DNA from: an uncultured Coprococcus sp.
GTDB taxonomy: Bacteria; Bacillota; Clostridia; Lachnospirales; Lachnospiraceae
Direction of reading: 5' to 3'
DNA: 64,000 nt
Assembly: GCA_947626675.1 (NCBI GenBank)
Contig: CANQTC010000003.1
Span: forward strand, 153,356 to 217,355
Below are positions 10,680 through 19,619 of this stretch, in pieces (position 1 is the first letter of the stretch; each line of letters opens with the position of its first letter). A model generated the notes under the pieces. It saw only the letters and a list, made by a program, of their open reading frames with translations, was not told the DNA's origin and did no database searches. The translations under genes and the position numbers were made by a program.

Positions 10680-11507
10680 ATGAAACAAAAAGATTTTGTT
10701 ACCGAAAGCAGTAAGATATTGGAAAGGTACTGGCAGATAATCGTAATCGTTGTAGCGGCACTTGTATTTTTCTTCTTTATTGGGTATTACATAATCAGTC
10801 ATGGAAAATGGGATTTTTATATGGATATGAAAGACGCACAGGTGAAAGAAGTGACTGCGGATGCAGACGCTGAAGTGAAAAAAGTAAAAAGGGCATATCT
10901 TACCTTTGATGACGGGCCATCGAAGAATACGATGGAATTACTCGATGTTCTTGATGAATGTGATGTAAAGGCTACATTCTTTGTAATAGGAAGAGAAGAA
11001 GAATATTATGATTGTTATAGAGCAATTGTAGACAGGGGACATGTGCTTGCGATTCATTCCTATACACATGATTATAGCCGGATTTATAGTTCAAAGGACA
11101 ATTTTGCAAATGATATTGAGGAATTAAGAAAATTATTGTATGATGTAACAGGAGTGAATCCTATTTATTACAGGTTTCCGGGAGGAAGTTCAAATACGAT
11201 ATCAAAAATTTCCATGAGTGAGCTTGTAGATTATATCAAGGAGCAGGGACTGATATATTTTGACTGGAATGCATTGAATAATGATGCTGTTTCGGATGGA
11301 CTGACGCCGCAGCAATTGGTAGATAATATTATGAAGGATGCAGTAAAGAATGATGATGTTGTCATTTTGATGCATGATTTAGATGGCAGGCATGCAACGA
11401 TAGAGTCGATTCCATTGCTTGTGGATACTTTGAGAAAAGCGGGATATGAGCTGCTGCCAATAGATGAGCGTACACCCCTGATAAGACATAAAGTGAACGC
11501 GAAATGA
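10680..11507 (+). CDS. Membrane-anchored polysaccharide deacetylase (NodB domain)
   Basis: A 275-residue protein with one N-terminal membrane helix (about residues 19-41) and an extracellular NodB-type deacetylase domain. Motif 1 is TFDDGPS with the catalytic and metal-binding aspartates, motif 2 is HSYTH with two metal-binding histidines, motif 3 is RFPGGS and the late LMHD histidine is present. Such enzymes remove acetyl groups from peptidoglycan GlcNAc or MurNAc, often raising lysozyme resistance. The exact substrate cannot be read from the sequence. An AAAGG ribosome site precedes ATG 10680. Confidence 0.9.
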   Translation: MKQKDFVTESSKILERYWQIIVIVVAALVFFFFIGYYIISHGKWDFYMDMKDAQVKEVTADADAEVKKVKRAYLTFDDGPSKNTMELLDVLDECDVKATFFVIGREEEYYDCYRAIVDRGHVLAIHSYTHDYSRIYSSKDNFANDIEELRKLLYDVTGVNPIYYRFPGGSSNTISKISMSELVDYIKEQGLIYFDWNALNNDAVSDGLTPQQLVDNIMKDAVKNDDVVILMHDLDGRHATIESIPLLVDTLRKAGYELLPIDERTPLIRHKVNAK

Positions 11508-11560: not shown

Positions 11561-13318
11561 ATGACAAAAGAAGAAGCTTATAATTATATAGAAGAAATCA
11601 ATAAGGCGGGAAGTGTGCTTGGGCTTGACAGTATGTATGAATTGCTTTTAAGACTGGATAATCCGCAGGAAAAACTTCATATCGTTCATGTGGCAGGAAC
11701 AAATGGAAAGGGTTCTGTATGTGCTTTTTTAGAGGAAATATTGCTGGATGCAGGATATCGCGTAGGAAGATATGTATCGCCAACGATATTTTCTTATTTT
11801 GAACGCTTTCAGATAAATAAGAGTTATATAAGCGATGAAGATTTTGCGAAAATGCTGGATATCGTAAAACGGGCATCGGATGGGATGGTAGCTGATGGGT
11901 ATGCAAGACCTACAGCATTTGAGACAGAAACAGCGGTTTCTTTTTTGTATTTTCTTGATAAGAATGTCGATATTGTTCTCCTTGAAACCGGAATGGGAGG
12001 TTTAGAGGATGCAACTAATGTCTGTAAAAAACCGCTTTGTACAATCCTTACAAGTATTAGTATGGACCATATGCAATTCCTCGGCGACAGCATATATGAT
12101 ATTCTGAATGCCAAGCTTGGCATTTTGAAACAAAATGTGCCTTGCGTGTCGGATATAATGGAAGAACGCCTAAAAAAAATATGGCTTGATAAATGTGAAG
12201 AAATGAAATGTCCTCACATAATGACAGATATAGAACAGATTATTGTGATGGAAAACGATGAGTATGGGATTCAATATACTTATAAAGGAAAAACTTATTT
12301 GATATCGATGCTTGGAAAACATCAGATTAATAATAGCATTTTGGCTATAGAAGCTGCTCAGATACTAAGAGAATACGGATATGATTTGGATTATGTGAAT
12401 GTCAAAAACGGACTTCGTAATACAAATTGGAAAGGACGTTTTCAAAAGTTGTCGGACAGACCGCTGCTGTATGTAGATGGAGCGCATAATGAGGGTGGCT
12501 GGAATTCGTTAAAAGATAACATAGAGACATATCTGAAGGGGAAAAAGCTGATATCGGTATGCGGCGTATTAAAGGATAAAGAATATCAGAAGATGCTTCA
12601 TATCCTTTCACCTTATACAGACTGTTTTATTGCAGTAACGCCGGACAGTCCGCGGGCACTGCCGAAAGAAGTTCTTTTGAAATATGCAGCGGAATGTATA
12701 GAAAATACATATGGCTGTGAACTTGACGAAGCGCTTGATAAAGCTTGTGAAATCGCAGAAACATTGGAAAATTCTGCTGTTTTAGTCTATGGCTCTCTGT
12801 CGTTTATAGGCCCTGTTATAGAAAAGTATGAAATGAAGGCAGACAGAATAAACGCAATATTCAATAATCATGAATATCGGTCATATATGAAAAGAATAAA
12901 TGAAAATGAGAAAACACGAAGGTTTTGCTGTCATGGTATGGCGCATTGCCTTGACGTGGCAAGAATTGCTTATATTATCAATCTGGAAGAGGGTTTTGGT
13001 ATCCCTAAGGATATTCTGTATGCAGCAGCGCTGCTGCATGATATAGGAAGGGCTGATGATGAATATACAGGGAAGAAGCATAATGAAAAAAGCCGTATTT
13101 ATTGTGAACCGATTTTATATGCGTGCGGTTATCATACAGACGAGGTGAAAATGATAGCAGAAGCAATCGAAAAGCACAATACGGATTGCGACAAACGAAC
13201 CGGGCTTGTCTATCTGCTTTACAAGGCGGACAAGCTTTCCAGAAATTGCTTTGACTGCGATATGTACCGGGAATGTTATTGGAAAGAGGACATGAAAAAT
13301 AATAAAATACGTTTTTAA
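11561..13318 (+). CDS. folC: FolC (folylpolyglutamate/dihydrofolate synthase) fused to an HD-domain phosphohydrolase
   Basis: I start at ATG 11561 (MTKEEAYNYIEE) after AAAGG; the track start at 11504 overlaps the previous gene. The product is 585 residues. Residues about 1-430 are FolC: P-loop GTNGKGS (46-52), ETGMGGLEDATN, MDHMQFLG, GKHQINNS and DGAHNEGG, so the ATP-dependent glutamate ligase looks active. Residues about 445-585 are an HD phosphohydrolase domain: HGMAHCLDVAR, ALLHDIGR with the HD pair near 493, EKHNTD, and a late Asp in YKADKLSR. The two parts are in one uninterrupted frame. The next genes are folP and folB-folK, so the HD domain probably acts in folate synthesis, but its substrate is unknown. 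Confidence 0.9.
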   Translation: MTKEEAYNYIEEINKAGSVLGLDSMYELLLRLDNPQEKLHIVHVAGTNGKGSVCAFLEEILLDAGYRVGRYVSPTIFSYFERFQINKSYISDEDFAKMLDIVKRASDGMVADGYARPTAFETETAVSFLYFLDKNVDIVLLETGMGGLEDATNVCKKPLCTILTSISMDHMQFLGDSIYDILNAKLGILKQNVPCVSDIMEERLKKIWLDKCEEMKCPHIMTDIEQIIVMENDEYGIQYTYKGKTYLISMLGKHQINNSILAIEAAQILREYGYDLDYVNVKNGLRNTNWKGRFQKLSDRPLLYVDGAHNEGGWNSLKDNIETYLKGKKLISVCGVLKDKEYQKMLHILSPYTDCFIAVTPDSPRALPKEVLLKYAAECIENTYGCELDEALDKACEIAETLENSAVLVYGSLSFIGPVIEKYEMKADRINAIFNNHEYRSYMKRINENEKTRRFCCHGMAHCLDVARIAYIINLEEGFGIPKDILYAAALLHDIGRADDEYTGKKHNEKSRIYCEPILYACGYHTDEVKMIAEAIEKHNTDCDKRTGLVYLLYKADKLSRNCFDCDMYRECYWKEDMKNNKIRF

Positions 13319-13328
13319 GGAGAAAAAG

Positions 13329-14135
13329 ATGATTATTGGAAGTAAAGATTTTAAAGATAATGAACGCCCGTATATCATGGGGATATTAAATGTAACACCG
13401 GATTCATTTTCAGATGGCGGACTTCATAATAAGCTTGATGATGCGCTTTCTCAAACTGAAAGGATGATAAAAGAGGGAGCAGATATTATAGACGTGGGTG
13501 GAGAATCGACAAGACCGGGATACACGCTGATACCGGATGAAGAAGAAATCGAAAGAGTCTGCCCTGTTATAGAGGAGATAAAGAAAAGGTTTGATATACC
13601 GGTTTCGCTTGATACATACAAATCGAAGGTTGCAGAAGCCGGAATCAAATCAGGGTGTGATTTAATCAATGACATATGGGGATTGAAATGGGACGGCGCT
13701 ATGGCACAGGTGATTGCAGAATATAATGTTGCATGCTGTCTGATGCATAACAGAAAAAATGCGGATTATGTTCATTTTGTTCAGGAGGTTATAGCAGACC
13801 TTGATGAAACGATGGATTTGGCGCAAAAAGCCGGGATAAAAAAAGATAAAATAATGGTAGACCCCGGAATCGGATTTGCAAAAGATTGCAGCCAAAATCT
13901 TAAAATGATGAATCATCTGGAACTTTTAAAAAAATGGGATGTTCCGATTTTGCTTGGAACTTCAAGGAAATCCATGATTGGACTTACGCTTGATTTGCCG
14001 GTGACGGAACGAGAAGAAGGAACGGTAGCAACATCTGTATTTGGACTTATGAAGGGATGCGGATATTTCAGGGTACATAATGTAAAGGCGAATTACAGAG
14101 CATTAAAAATGACATATGCCATGATGAATGCGTAA
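13329..14135 (+). CDS. folP: Dihydropteroate synthase FolP
   Basis: A 268-residue TIM-barrel enzyme joining p-aminobenzoate to hydroxymethyl-dihydropterin diphosphate. Signature motifs are IMGILNVTPDSFSDGG near the N-terminus, DVGGESTRPG (about residues 56-65) and DPGIGFAKD in the second half; these bind the pterin diphosphate. It is the sulfonamide target. It follows folC by 10 nt with an AAGGAGAAAAAG ribosome site and its end lies just before folB-folK, so the cluster is one operon. Confidence 0.95.
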   Translation: MIIGSKDFKDNERPYIMGILNVTPDSFSDGGLHNKLDDALSQTERMIKEGADIIDVGGESTRPGYTLIPDEEEIERVCPVIEEIKKRFDIPVSLDTYKSKVAEAGIKSGCDLINDIWGLKWDGAMAQVIAEYNVACCLMHNRKNADYVHFVQEVIADLDETMDLAQKAGIKKDKIMVDPGIGFAKDCSQNLKMMNHLELLKKWDVPILLGTSRKSMIGLTLDLPVTEREEGTVATSVFGLMKGCGYFRVHNVKANYRALKMTYAMMNA

Positions 14136-14178
14136 AATAAACAGCGGCAGCATGAACTGTGATGTGGAGGATATGCGG

Positions 14179-14994
14179 ATGGATAAGATTTTAATTAAAG
14201 GACTTGAGATTTTTGCTCATCATGGAGTATTTGAAGAAGAAAATGCACTTGGACAGAAATTTATTATAGACGCAGCGTTATATATGTCAACGAGACAGGC
14301 GGGGATATCAGATGATATCATGCAGTCTGTTGATTACGGCAGGGTTTGTTCTGATATAGATAATATGATGTGTGAACAAAATTATAATCTTATCGAGGCC
14401 GCAGCAGAGAAAATTGCCTGCGGGATACTGATAAAATATCCAACCGTAACAGCAATTGATTTAACAGTTAAAAAACCGTGGGCTCCTGTTTTGATGCCGA
14501 TAGAAACCGTTGCAGTTTCTATTTCCAGAAGAAAACATATCGCATATCTTGGACTTGGCTCTAATATGGGAGACAGAGAATCCTATCTTGATTTGGCAAT
14601 AGACGAATTAAATAAAGATGAATATACAAAAGTGACAAAGGTCTCTGATTTTATTGAAACGAAACCTTATGGAGGTGTTGAACAGGATGACTTTTTAAAT
14701 GGATGTATCGAAGTAGAAACGCTTTTATCCCCCGAGGAGCTACTGTGTTTAATCAATCACATTGAAAAACAGGCGGGAAGGGAGCGGCTTATTCACTGGG
14801 GACCAAGAACACTTGATATCGATATCCTGCTTTATGATGATTTGGTATATGACAGTGAAAATTTGCATATACCGCATAAAGAAATGCATAAGAGAAGCTT
14901 TGTATTAGAACCGCTGGTAAGTATAGCCGGTTATAAGCGTCATCCGATTATTGGAAAGACTGTAGAGGAGCTTATGCAGGAACTTCATAACTAG
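14179..14994 (+). CDS. folBK: Bifunctional dihydroneopterin aldolase / HPPK (FolB-FolK fusion)
   Basis: I choose ATG 14179 (MDKILIKGLEIFAHHG) because GGAGG lies 8 nt upstream; the track start at 14128 overlaps folP. The product is 271 residues. Residues 1-118 are FolB (dihydroneopterin aldolase) with the IFAHHGVFEEE active-site region. Residues about 120-271 are FolK, which pyrophosphorylates hydroxymethyl-dihydropterin: GLGSNMGDR and HWGPRTLDIDILL are clear. FolB-FolK fusions are known in Firmicutes. GTP cyclohydrolase FolE is not in this cluster and must be encoded elsewhere. Confidence 0.93.
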   Translation: MDKILIKGLEIFAHHGVFEEENALGQKFIIDAALYMSTRQAGISDDIMQSVDYGRVCSDIDNMMCEQNYNLIEAAAEKIACGILIKYPTVTAIDLTVKKPWAPVLMPIETVAVSISRRKHIAYLGLGSNMGDRESYLDLAIDELNKDEYTKVTKVSDFIETKPYGGVEQDDFLNGCIEVETLLSPEELLCLINHIEKQAGRERLIHWGPRTLDIDILLYDDLVYDSENLHIPHKEMHKRSFVLEPLVSIAGYKRHPIIGKTVEELMQELHN

Positions 14995-15966: not shown

Positions 15967-17502
15967 ATGGCGGGGAAAACATTTGCAGCGATTGATGTGG
16001 GTTCAAACGAAATCTCAATGAAGATATATGAGATAACACCGAAAAAAGGTGCGAAAGCGTTAGATTATGTGAACCGTATTGTTGAGATTGGGAGTGAGAC
16101 CTATAAAGATGGAAAGATAGGCGAAGATACGATTTATAAAGTATGCGATATTCTCAACAGATTAAAAAAGAAGATGAAAGAATATTGCGTTGAGGATTAC
16201 AGGGCGTATGCTTCAAGTGCGGTAAGGGAAGCAGAAAATTCAGTGATGGCGCTTGAACGGATTAAGATGAGTACAGGGATAGAAGTGACGGTGTTGAGCA
16301 ATTCCGAACAGCGTTTTATGAATTATAAAGCATATGCGGCATCCGGAATCAATGAAGAAATAGGGAATAATAAGAATACCGCGCTGCTTGATATCGGTGC
16401 AGGAAGTCTTCAGATTTCTATATTTGATAAGACCAATCTTGTGCAGACGCAGAACCTTCCTATCGGTGCAGTCAGAATAAGGGATTATCTGAAACGGTTT
16501 GGCTCAGATACTGTTGCACTTGAAAATATTATGGGAGAATATGTTTCTAATTTTATTGAGGAATTCAGAAATCTGTTTATCAATGATAAAGACATAAAGA
16601 GTATTATTGCGATAGGAGATGGAATTACAAATCTGAAAAAAGCAGGACCGGAGCTTGATATTGCTGACCGGATATCAAGGGAACAATTTGCTGTTTTATA
16701 TAAGAAAGTTGCAGATACCAATCCGGAGGAACTGGCGGAAAAATATGGAATACCATATGAACGGGCGACACTGATGCTGCCTATGGCGATTATTTACCAG
16801 TCGTTTTTAGATAATTCGCGGGCTGAGGATATTGTAACGCCAAATGTAAATTTTTGTGATGGAATTGTGGCAGATTATATGGATAAGCAGAAAACACTGC
16901 TGCTCAATAAAGATTTTGATCAGGATATACTGGCATCAGCAAACAGCATTGCAAAAAAATATAAAGTAAATAGAAAGCATACCCAGAATGTAGTTCAGAA
17001 TGCCATTGATATATTTGATGCCTTAAAGCATATTCACGGACTGGGCAAGCGGGAACGACTGCAGCTTTATATAGCGGCGCTTCTTCATAGCTGTGGAAAA
17101 TTTGTAAATATGAATGACAGTGCATTTATCTCTTATAATATTATTATGTCAACGGAGATATTGGGGTTATCTCATAAAGAAAGAGAAGAGATTGCAAATA
17201 TCGTAAGGTATAACATCTATTATCTGCCATCAGCCGATAAAGCAAAGGAAAAACTGAACAGCGCTGATTATATGAAGGTTGCCAAGCTGACATCTATACT
17301 CAGAATCGCTGATGTATTGGATAAGAGTCATAAGCAGAAGATAAATAATATGAAATATAATATAAAGAATAATGTGTTTACAATGTCAGTAGATACTTTA
17401 TCAGATATTACATTGGAGGCAGGCTTTTTTAAAGATAAGACGGAGTTGTTTATAAAAGTGTTCGGACTTACTCCGGTATTGAAGCAGAAAAGGGGGCTTT
17501 AA
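15967..17502 (+). CDS. ppx: Ppx/GppA-type exopolyphosphatase
   Basis: A 511-residue protein with an ASKHA-fold phosphatase part (about residues 1-300: AAIDVGSNEISMKIYEI, ALLDIGAGSLQIS with the second phosphate loop) and a C-terminal HD-like helical domain (about 310-511). In that domain the usual HD pair reads HS (ALLHSCGKF), so metal binding there may be lost or altered. The family hydrolyses terminal phosphates from polyphosphate or pppGpp. The gene ends 2 nt before ppk1, so synthesis and breakdown of polyphosphate are encoded together. An AGAGAGGTGG ribosome site precedes ATG 15967. Confidence 0.9.
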   Translation: MAGKTFAAIDVGSNEISMKIYEITPKKGAKALDYVNRIVEIGSETYKDGKIGEDTIYKVCDILNRLKKKMKEYCVEDYRAYASSAVREAENSVMALERIKMSTGIEVTVLSNSEQRFMNYKAYAASGINEEIGNNKNTALLDIGAGSLQISIFDKTNLVQTQNLPIGAVRIRDYLKRFGSDTVALENIMGEYVSNFIEEFRNLFINDKDIKSIIAIGDGITNLKKAGPELDIADRISREQFAVLYKKVADTNPEELAEKYGIPYERATLMLPMAIIYQSFLDNSRAEDIVTPNVNFCDGIVADYMDKQKTLLLNKDFDQDILASANSIAKKYKVNRKHTQNVVQNAIDIFDALKHIHGLGKRERLQLYIAALLHSCGKFVNMNDSAFISYNIIMSTEILGLSHKEREEIANIVRYNIYYLPSADKAKEKLNSADYMKVAKLTSILRIADVLDKSHKQKINNMKYNIKNNVFTMSVDTLSDITLEAGFFKDKTELFIKVFGLTPVLKQKRGL

Positions 17503-17504
17503 TC

Positions 17505-19619
17505 ATGGCAGAGAATAAAGAAAAAATGTTTTATAATAGGGAACTTAGCTGGCTTGAGTTTGATAAAAGATGTCTGGGAGAGGCAAAAGATAAGACAATA
17601 CCTTTATTTGAGAGAATAAAGTTCTTAAGTATTACAGCGTCGAATCTTGATGAATTTTTTATGGTAAGAATTGCGTCGCTTACAGATATGGTTCATGCGG
17701 GATATACGAAAAAAGATATATCGGGTATGACCGCAAATGAGCAGCTTCAGGCGTTGATAGTAAGCACGAAAGAATTTATGAAAAATCAGTATCATACATA
17801 TAACAGATCGCTGCTTCCGCTTCTTGAGGCAAACGGACTAAAAATCGTAAGACATTATGAAGAACTTAGCGAAGAGCAGGCAAAATATGTAGATAAGGTA
17901 TTTGAAAAGGATATTTATCCTGTTCTCACACCGATGGCAGTTGATTCGTCAAGGCCATTTCCGCTTGTAAGAAATAAGTCTCTTAATATTGGTGCGCTTA
18001 TATACGATGAGAAAAAGGATGTAACAGATATTGCGACAGTACAGGTGCCATCTGTACTTCCGAGAATCATAAGGCTTCCATCTGAAGAAGAGGGGGTAAC
18101 AGATATTATTCTTCTGGAGGAAGTTATAGAAAAAAATCTTGATAAATTATTCCTGAATTATGAGATTATATGCGCCCATCCGTATCGTATTATGCGAAAT
18201 GCTGATTTTTCAATAGATGAGGAGGAAACAGCCGATTTATTGAAAGAAATAGAAAAACAACTGAAACAGAGACAATGGGGCGAGGTAATCCGTCTTGAAG
18301 TTGAAGATGGAATGGATAAGAAGCTGCTTAAAGAATTGAAAAAACATCTGGGTGTAGAGGATGAGGTCATCTATAAGATTAATGGTCCGCTTGATTTAAC
18401 CTTCCTTATGAAAGTAAATGGCATGACAGGATTTGAACATCTGAAATATCCGAAGCATGTTCCATGCCCTGTTCCTGAAATGGGAGACTATAGTAATATA
18501 TTTGAACAGATTAAAGCACGCGATATATTACTGTTTCATCCATATTATGAATTTACGCCGGTTATTGAATTTATCAGACAGGCGGCTGCTGATTCCGATG
18601 TGCTTGCCATTAAACAGACGCTTTATCGTGTGAGTGGTAATTCACCGATTATTGCGGCGCTTGCACAGGCGGCAGAAAATGGCAAACAGGTAACTGTTCT
18701 TGTGGAGCTTAAGGCAAGATTTGACGAGGAGAATAACATTGCATGGGCAAAGAAGCTTGAGCAGGCCGGATGTCATGTAATATATGGACTTGTAGGACTG
18801 AAGACGCATTCAAAGATTGCACTTGTCGTAAGAAGAGAAGAAGATGGGATAAGGCGATATGTGCATCTTGGCACAGGTAATTATAACGACCAGACAGCGA
18901 AGCTTTATACAGATATGGGACTTCTTACATGCAGTGATGCGATAGGAGAAGATGCTACAGCGGTATTCAATATGTTGTCAGGATATTCAGAGCCTAAGAA
19001 ATGGAATAAGCTTGCTGTTGCGCCGATATGGCTTAAAAATAAATTTCTTATGCTTATCAACAGAGAAGCGGAAAATGCAAAGCAGGGAAAGAAGGCAAGA
19101 ATTGTTGCAAAGATGAATTCCCTCTGTGACCCAAAGATTATGAATGCGCTTTATGACGCAGGCAAAGCCGGAGTTCAGATTGAACTGATTGTAAGAGGAA
19201 TCTGCTGTATAAAAGCGGGTGTTCCAGGACTGAGTGAGAATATAGCAGTACGGTCAATCGTAGGAAACTTCCTTGAACATTCGAGAATATTTTATTTTTA
19301 TAATGATGGTTTTGAGGATATCTACATGGGAAGTGCAGACTGGATGCCTAGAAATCTGGATAAAAGAGTTGAGATAACCTTTCCGGTAGAAGCGCCGGAG
19401 TTAAAGGAGCAGGTGAAGGAAATATTAAAGGTGCAGTTATCCGATACACTGAAGGCTCATATTATGCAGCCTGACGGAAGTTATATCAAGCAGGATTTAA
19501 GAGGAAAGGAAAGACTGGACTCCCAGATGTATTTTGCAGAAAAAGCAAAAAGGTCGGTGAAACAGCCGGATACAGCGACAGACAGCAGGGTGTTTATTCC
19601 GGTAGAGGGAAAAGAATAA
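17505..19619 (+). CDS. ppk1: Polyphosphate kinase 1
   Basis: A full-length 704-residue PPK1 that polymerises the gamma-phosphate of ATP into polyphosphate. The N-terminal domain starts YNRELSWLEFDKR, typical of the family. The two phospholipase-D-like catalytic histidines are His435 (LKTHSKIAL) and His592 (FLEHSRIF), the same numbers as in E. coli PPK1; His435 is the residue that becomes phosphorylated. It is the last gene before the infC promoter and is translated right after ppx. Confidence 0.96.
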   Translation: MAENKEKMFYNRELSWLEFDKRCLGEAKDKTIPLFERIKFLSITASNLDEFFMVRIASLTDMVHAGYTKKDISGMTANEQLQALIVSTKEFMKNQYHTYNRSLLPLLEANGLKIVRHYEELSEEQAKYVDKVFEKDIYPVLTPMAVDSSRPFPLVRNKSLNIGALIYDEKKDVTDIATVQVPSVLPRIIRLPSEEEGVTDIILLEEVIEKNLDKLFLNYEIICAHPYRIMRNADFSIDEEETADLLKEIEKQLKQRQWGEVIRLEVEDGMDKKLLKELKKHLGVEDEVIYKINGPLDLTFLMKVNGMTGFEHLKYPKHVPCPVPEMGDYSNIFEQIKARDILLFHPYYEFTPVIEFIRQAAADSDVLAIKQTLYRVSGNSPIIAALAQAAENGKQVTVLVELKARFDEENNIAWAKKLEQAGCHVIYGLVGLKTHSKIALVVRREEDGIRRYVHLGTGNYNDQTAKLYTDMGLLTCSDAIGEDATAVFNMLSGYSEPKKWNKLAVAPIWLKNKFLMLINREAENAKQGKKARIVAKMNSLCDPKIMNALYDAGKAGVQIELIVRGICCIKAGVPGLSENIAVRSIVGNFLEHSRIFYFYNDGFEDIYMGSADWMPRNLDKRVEITFPVEAPELKEQVKEILKVQLSDTLKAHIMQPDGSYIKQDLRGKERLDSQMYFAEKAKRSVKQPDTATDSRVFIPVEGKE

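Follow-up and report, generated by a model that had tools for sequence, protein, structure and literature searches.

The C-terminal HD half of a FolC-HD fusion protein encoded in the window, a stretch of 64,000 nucleotides from the genome of an uncultured Coprococcus species, is probably a FolQ2-type metal-dependent phosphohydrolase that acts on 7,8-dihydroneopterin triphosphate and thereby enables the FolB reaction. In bacterial folate synthesis, few steps are as poorly assigned as the removal of phosphate between FolE and FolB.

FolQ2, a protein of the HDIG superfamily found in folate gene clusters (e.g. CPE1020 of Clostridium perfringens), was put forward in 2007 as a substitute for FolQ. 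In that paper, its activity on dihydroneopterin triphosphate is a prediction marked as unverified, and a figure legend counts fhs among the clustered genes (PMC1971073). A gut reconstruction from 2019 places FolQ2 in the folate pathway (PMC6593275). Among the open-access papers searched, FolQ2 appears in these two only, and none that tests it was found. By its family type, neighbourhood and lineage, we assign the HD half to the FolQ2 type. The resemblance comprises the HD family, the folate and fhs neighbourhood, the occurrence in Clostridia (other Clostridium species also carry the family) and the proposed role, whereas the fusion to FolC sets the protein of the window apart. Hence, the idea that this domain removes phosphate is a rediscovery of the 2007 proposal. 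What is new are the FolC-HD fusions in several lineages whose sister species keep the genes separate, four invariant cysteines forming a signature for which we know of no earlier description, and the absence of the HD gene, with no visible replacement, from 30 of 88 folK-bearing relatives.

A fused frame in a folate gene cluster

The fusion is encoded on the forward strand by a single uninterrupted frame of 585 amino acids, which starts from the ATG at 11561 and ends at 13318. Judged by the alignment, this ATG is a better start than position 11504, where the mechanical ORF begins, because related FolC proteins have their N-termini at the same place; the residues added by the upstream start have no support in most relatives. 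The first part of the protein (residues 1-425, positions 11561-12835) is a dihydrofolate/folylpolyglutamate synthase. It matches the TIGR01499 folC model at residues 22-421 with 327 bits (cut-off 162.65) over model positions 1-398 of 400, i.e. it is a full-length FolC, and the Mur_ligase_M and Mur_ligase_C models are also matched.

The second part (residues 426-585 and the stop codon, positions 12836-13318, forward strand) is the putative FolQ2-type HD phosphohydrolase with the four invariant cysteines. The Pfam HD model (PF01966) matches residues 461-561 of the fusion at 46 bits (cut-off 22), the TIGR00277 HDIG model scores above its own cut-off, and a profile search of the fusion protein gave no Nudix match in this half. 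The two parts are followed on the same strand by folP, encoding dihydropteroate synthase (13329-14135; TIGR01496, 312 bits), and by a folB-folK fusion encoding dihydroneopterin aldolase and HPPK (14128-14994; TIGR00525 and TIGR01498, both above cut-off). These profile matches agree with the original prediction, which had read FolC and the HD domain, both complete, in one frame upstream of folP and folB-folK and had placed the frame and its start codon correctly at 11561-13318. Further 3', the fol genes and a prephenate dehydratase gene are followed by one gene of the Ppx/GppA type and another that resembles polyphosphate kinase (15967-19619), and neighbours of this kind recur in relatives.

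The pterin branch and the missing step

The assembly that contains the window (2.3 Mb in 25 contigs, about 80% complete) encodes FolE, FolB, FolK, FolP, FolC and DHFR. The fol cluster does lack folE, as had been noticed from the window; the gene, encoding GTP cyclohydrolase IA, sits on a different contig (G000:C16:28293-28841, E = 1.8e-66) beside ORFs that we read as queD, queE and queC, i.e. in a queuosine-type operon. There is also a second FolC-like gene (G000:C7:41184-42377), about 35% identical to the first, and a counterpart is present in all other members of the genus examined, except the incomplete ones.

A separate FolQ-like Nudix hydrolase together with a phosphatase had been named in the original prediction as evidence that would speak against it. 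The genome has seven Nudix matches, six of which were profiled against the NudB model, and none of these six was of NudB grade, the best scoring 24.9 against a cut-off of 103. In this respect the prediction is partly upheld, within the reach of the NudB profile, which does not extend to a Lactococcus-type FolQ. Since FolE, DHFR and the fol genes are present and no NudB-grade Nudix protein was seen among those profiled, the pterin branch of this genome is accounted for except for the removal of phosphate from dihydroneopterin triphosphate.

A related proposal was that the HD domain resembles MptB, an HD protein of archaea that acts as a cyclic phosphodiesterase on dihydroneopterin cyclic phosphate and follows a cyclohydrolase that makes this compound. 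By description, the two have the HD superfamily and a pterin phosphate substrate in common, and the gene context would suit the removal of phosphate at any point between FolE and FolB. The HD half could act on dihydroneopterin 2',3'-cyclic phosphate or on the monophosphate after another enzyme or a spontaneous cyclization has dealt with the triphosphate. However, the roughly 80% complete genome gave no match to PF02649, the cyclohydrolase that would supply the cyclic phosphate, and nothing else known to make it was found, whereas GTP cyclohydrolase IA, which is expected to make dihydroneopterin triphosphate, is present here and in all 59 HD-bearing genomes among the 150 described below. The analogy with MptB is therefore weak, and such a role is unlikely.

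Distribution and gene neighbourhood of the HD family

A search with the HD half alone turned up relatives in many genomes from this bacterial family, about 37-49% identical to it and nearly all encoded by stand-alone genes. All 29 loci examined from this search are linked to fol genes, commonly in the order folC-folE-HD-folP-folB-folK. The same linkage was seen in 79 of 80 cases among named contigs, several Clostridium species included, and in 67 of the 69 loci examined in the phylum-wide set. Usually folP lies directly 3' of the HD gene, and folE is often adjacent. In about 10 of 16 distant clusters checked, fhs (formate-tetrahydrofolate ligase, recognized by eye) is found upstream. Overall, a survey of HD genes beside fol genes, proposed along with the original reading, found the family within a folate gene cluster at 175 of 178 loci, and it also turned up the fusions in several lineages. 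The fol-unlinked copies are L145 and L272, each close to the end of a contig or locus, and L273, for which this does not hold. Across the phylum, a threshold of at least 85 bits gave 99 family-bearing genomes out of 399 sampled (counted by hand; the next distinct protein scores 61-62 bits), and in these the family by its position fills the gap between FolE and FolB. Among NCBIfam models only the generic HDIG model recognized the family, the other matches (dNTPase, YqeK and RNase Y) being weak and far below cut-off. In many of the distant clusters (L209-L270) the FolP frame has about 400-430 residues, i.e. it is about 130 residues longer than the FolP of the window.

In a set of 150 genomes drawn from this bacterial family, the HD gene occurs in 59, FolK in 88 and a FolE match in 92. 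FolE-IA accompanies the HD gene in 59 of 59 genomes and FolK in 58 of 59; the one exception, G040, has its HD gene at a contig end. The co-occurrence with FolE/FolK gave a Fisher p value of about 1e-17, and the HD-FolK association within the FolE-bearing genomes was not significant (p = 0.054), both values ignoring kinship. The NudB equivalog was found in 0 of the 150 genomes, and NudB was therefore rejected as the alternative enzyme in this set. Gene context and co-occurrence thus lend good support to the HD domain as a candidate for the phosphate-removing step. The same two observations, a very tight phylum-wide linkage directly beside folP and often folE and the strict co-occurrence with FolE, speak against a role close to folate metabolism but off the pathway, in which the HD domain would, for example, dispose of a different nucleotide or of a phosphate related to folate, or control flux. 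Such a role would agree with the many substrates of HD hydrolases, with the weak model matches listed above and with the lack of the HD gene in a third of the folK-bearing relatives, but we consider it improbable.

The 30 of 88 folK-bearing genomes without the HD gene show that the step is not universally HD-dependent, and hence the HD protein is a good candidate for it, not a universal answer. Where complete, their clusters are compact folC-folE-folP-folB-folK arrays with nothing in the place of the HD gene. We listed the gene families common to at least four of these 30 fol loci (L157-L186); none of them looked like a replacement enzyme and the loci lacked a strict Nudix motif, so that a replacement gene within these clusters was rejected. 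As many of them contain folE, folP, folB and folK and lack both the HD gene and any nearby Nudix motif, another phosphate-removing enzyme must operate in these organisms. The 30 folate producers therefore point to a place for finding the next missing enzyme.

Conserved residues and a predicted cysteine metal site

With HD residues numbered from residue 426 of the fusion, C31, H33, H37, R43, H68, D69, H82 and H114, together with D132, R136, C138, C141 and C147 of the tail, are invariant wherever readable in 178 distinct sequences. H37, H68, D69 and D132 make up the H...HD...D ligand set of the HD superfamily, and with H82 and H114 they are presumably the ligands of a dinuclear-type HD center. 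The cysteines form a C-x-H-x3-H pattern near the start and a C-x2-C-x5-C pattern at the end, and all four are as conserved as the HD metal ligands; 186 of the 188 tails that could be read have exactly five residues between the last two cysteines. The assignment of the HD part draws on PF01966, the family alignment, the conservation and a confident AlphaFold2 model (pLDDT 92, pTM 0.88).

One N-terminal cysteine and three near the C-terminus is the layout of the iron staple proteins Cas4 and AddB, whose spacing is similar to C-x2-C-x5-C. In Cas4, cysteines so arranged hold a 4Fe-4S cluster, and in one relative such a site is occupied by zinc (PMC3466216). The resemblance is confined to the cysteine arrangement, as the folds are unrelated. 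The four invariant cysteines suggest a second metal site in the HD half, and the predicted site probably contains a [4Fe-4S] cluster, with zinc as the alternative. The signature is not mentioned in the passages on FolQ2 consulted in PMC1971073 and PMC6593275.

The best solved relative is 2pq7, an HD hydrolase of uncharacterized function that was found both by sequence (E = 4e-11) and by fold. It has the same H33, H37, HD, H82 and H114 pattern, but has proline in place of C31, and the alignment with it stops short of the cysteine tail. The matches to most of the weaker HD relatives from the phylum-wide search likewise stop near position 134, and the cysteine site therefore looks specific to the FolQ2-type family. 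A Foldseek search with the HD half gave no match with E < 0.001; YpgQ was among the weak matches. The solved structures of HD proteins that the sequence and fold searches gave belong to hydrolases or to uncharacterized proteins. As the best PDB match is uncharacterized and all Foldseek E-values exceed 0.001, assigning the substrate from the fold was rejected.

Proposed reaction

We infer that the HD half removes phosphate from 7,8-dihydroneopterin triphosphate, which FolE makes, and that the resulting dihydroneopterin would be the substrate of FolB. A metal center, probably dinuclear and coordinated by H37, H68, D69, H82, H114 and D132, would activate a water molecule for attack on the phosphate chain. 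The cysteine site, probably structural and likely a [4Fe-4S] cluster, would tie the C-terminal tail to the segment that precedes the active-site histidines.

FolQ/NudB is a Nudix dihydroneopterin triphosphate pyrophosphatase that releases pyrophosphate and leaves the monophosphate. The HD half has the proposed pathway step in common with it, but differs in having an unrelated fold and no Nudix motif. Release of pyrophosphate in the same manner is our first choice of reaction, held tentatively and at slightly less than even chances, because it is the FolQ reaction that is being replaced and because HD enzymes with such activity are known; the YpgQ protein of B. subtilis is reportedly one of them. 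Alternatively, the enzyme may remove the entire chain at once or just its last phosphate.

A bolder and rather doubtful possibility is that FolQ2 represents a new enzyme class, in which HD phosphohydrolases with an obligatory [4Fe-4S] cluster would dephosphorylate dihydroneopterin triphosphate in many anaerobic Firmicutes, perhaps in one step, with about a third of the folate-producing relatives using another enzyme.

Recurrence and possible origin of the fusion

Besides the window, G153 (the same protein as L077), G009 (L187), L096, L129 and L098 also have FolC-HD fusions, with differing junctions. Since such frames recur, the fusion is more than chance. The junction in the window lies at 12826-12852 on the forward strand. 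At the same place in the sister species G152, the folC and HD frames overlap with an offset of one base, so that a single-base change would be enough to join them. This overlap, along with the 80% completeness of the assembly and its 25 contigs, could indicate that the fused frame is a one-base assembly error and that the two genes are separate in the organism. Given that fusions with different junctions are found in the other assemblies listed, we consider such an error unlikely, and whether the fusion is real has no bearing on what the HD half does.

The fusion is not fixed even within the genus, as G150, G151 and G152 have folC and the HD gene as separate genes. In the tree, the window protein pairs with the unfused G152 protein and L077 with that of G150. 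The fusion label changes five times on this quick tree, and at least two of the changes are forced by well-supported branches. A fusion requires folC and the HD gene to be adjacent, as they are where folE does not intervene; it is probably a by-product of the two becoming neighbours once folE no longer separated them, with the FolC half catalyzing its own late step. Functional coupling of FolC and HD by the fusion was rejected because the genes are separate in most relatives, and for this reason the fusion says little about the HD reaction. A six-sequence AlphaFold2 model of the fusion (pTM 0.69) was not used for any functional conclusion. A second kind of fusion within the HD family was observed at L097:6326-7480, where the HD domain is joined to a RibD_C reductase-type domain.
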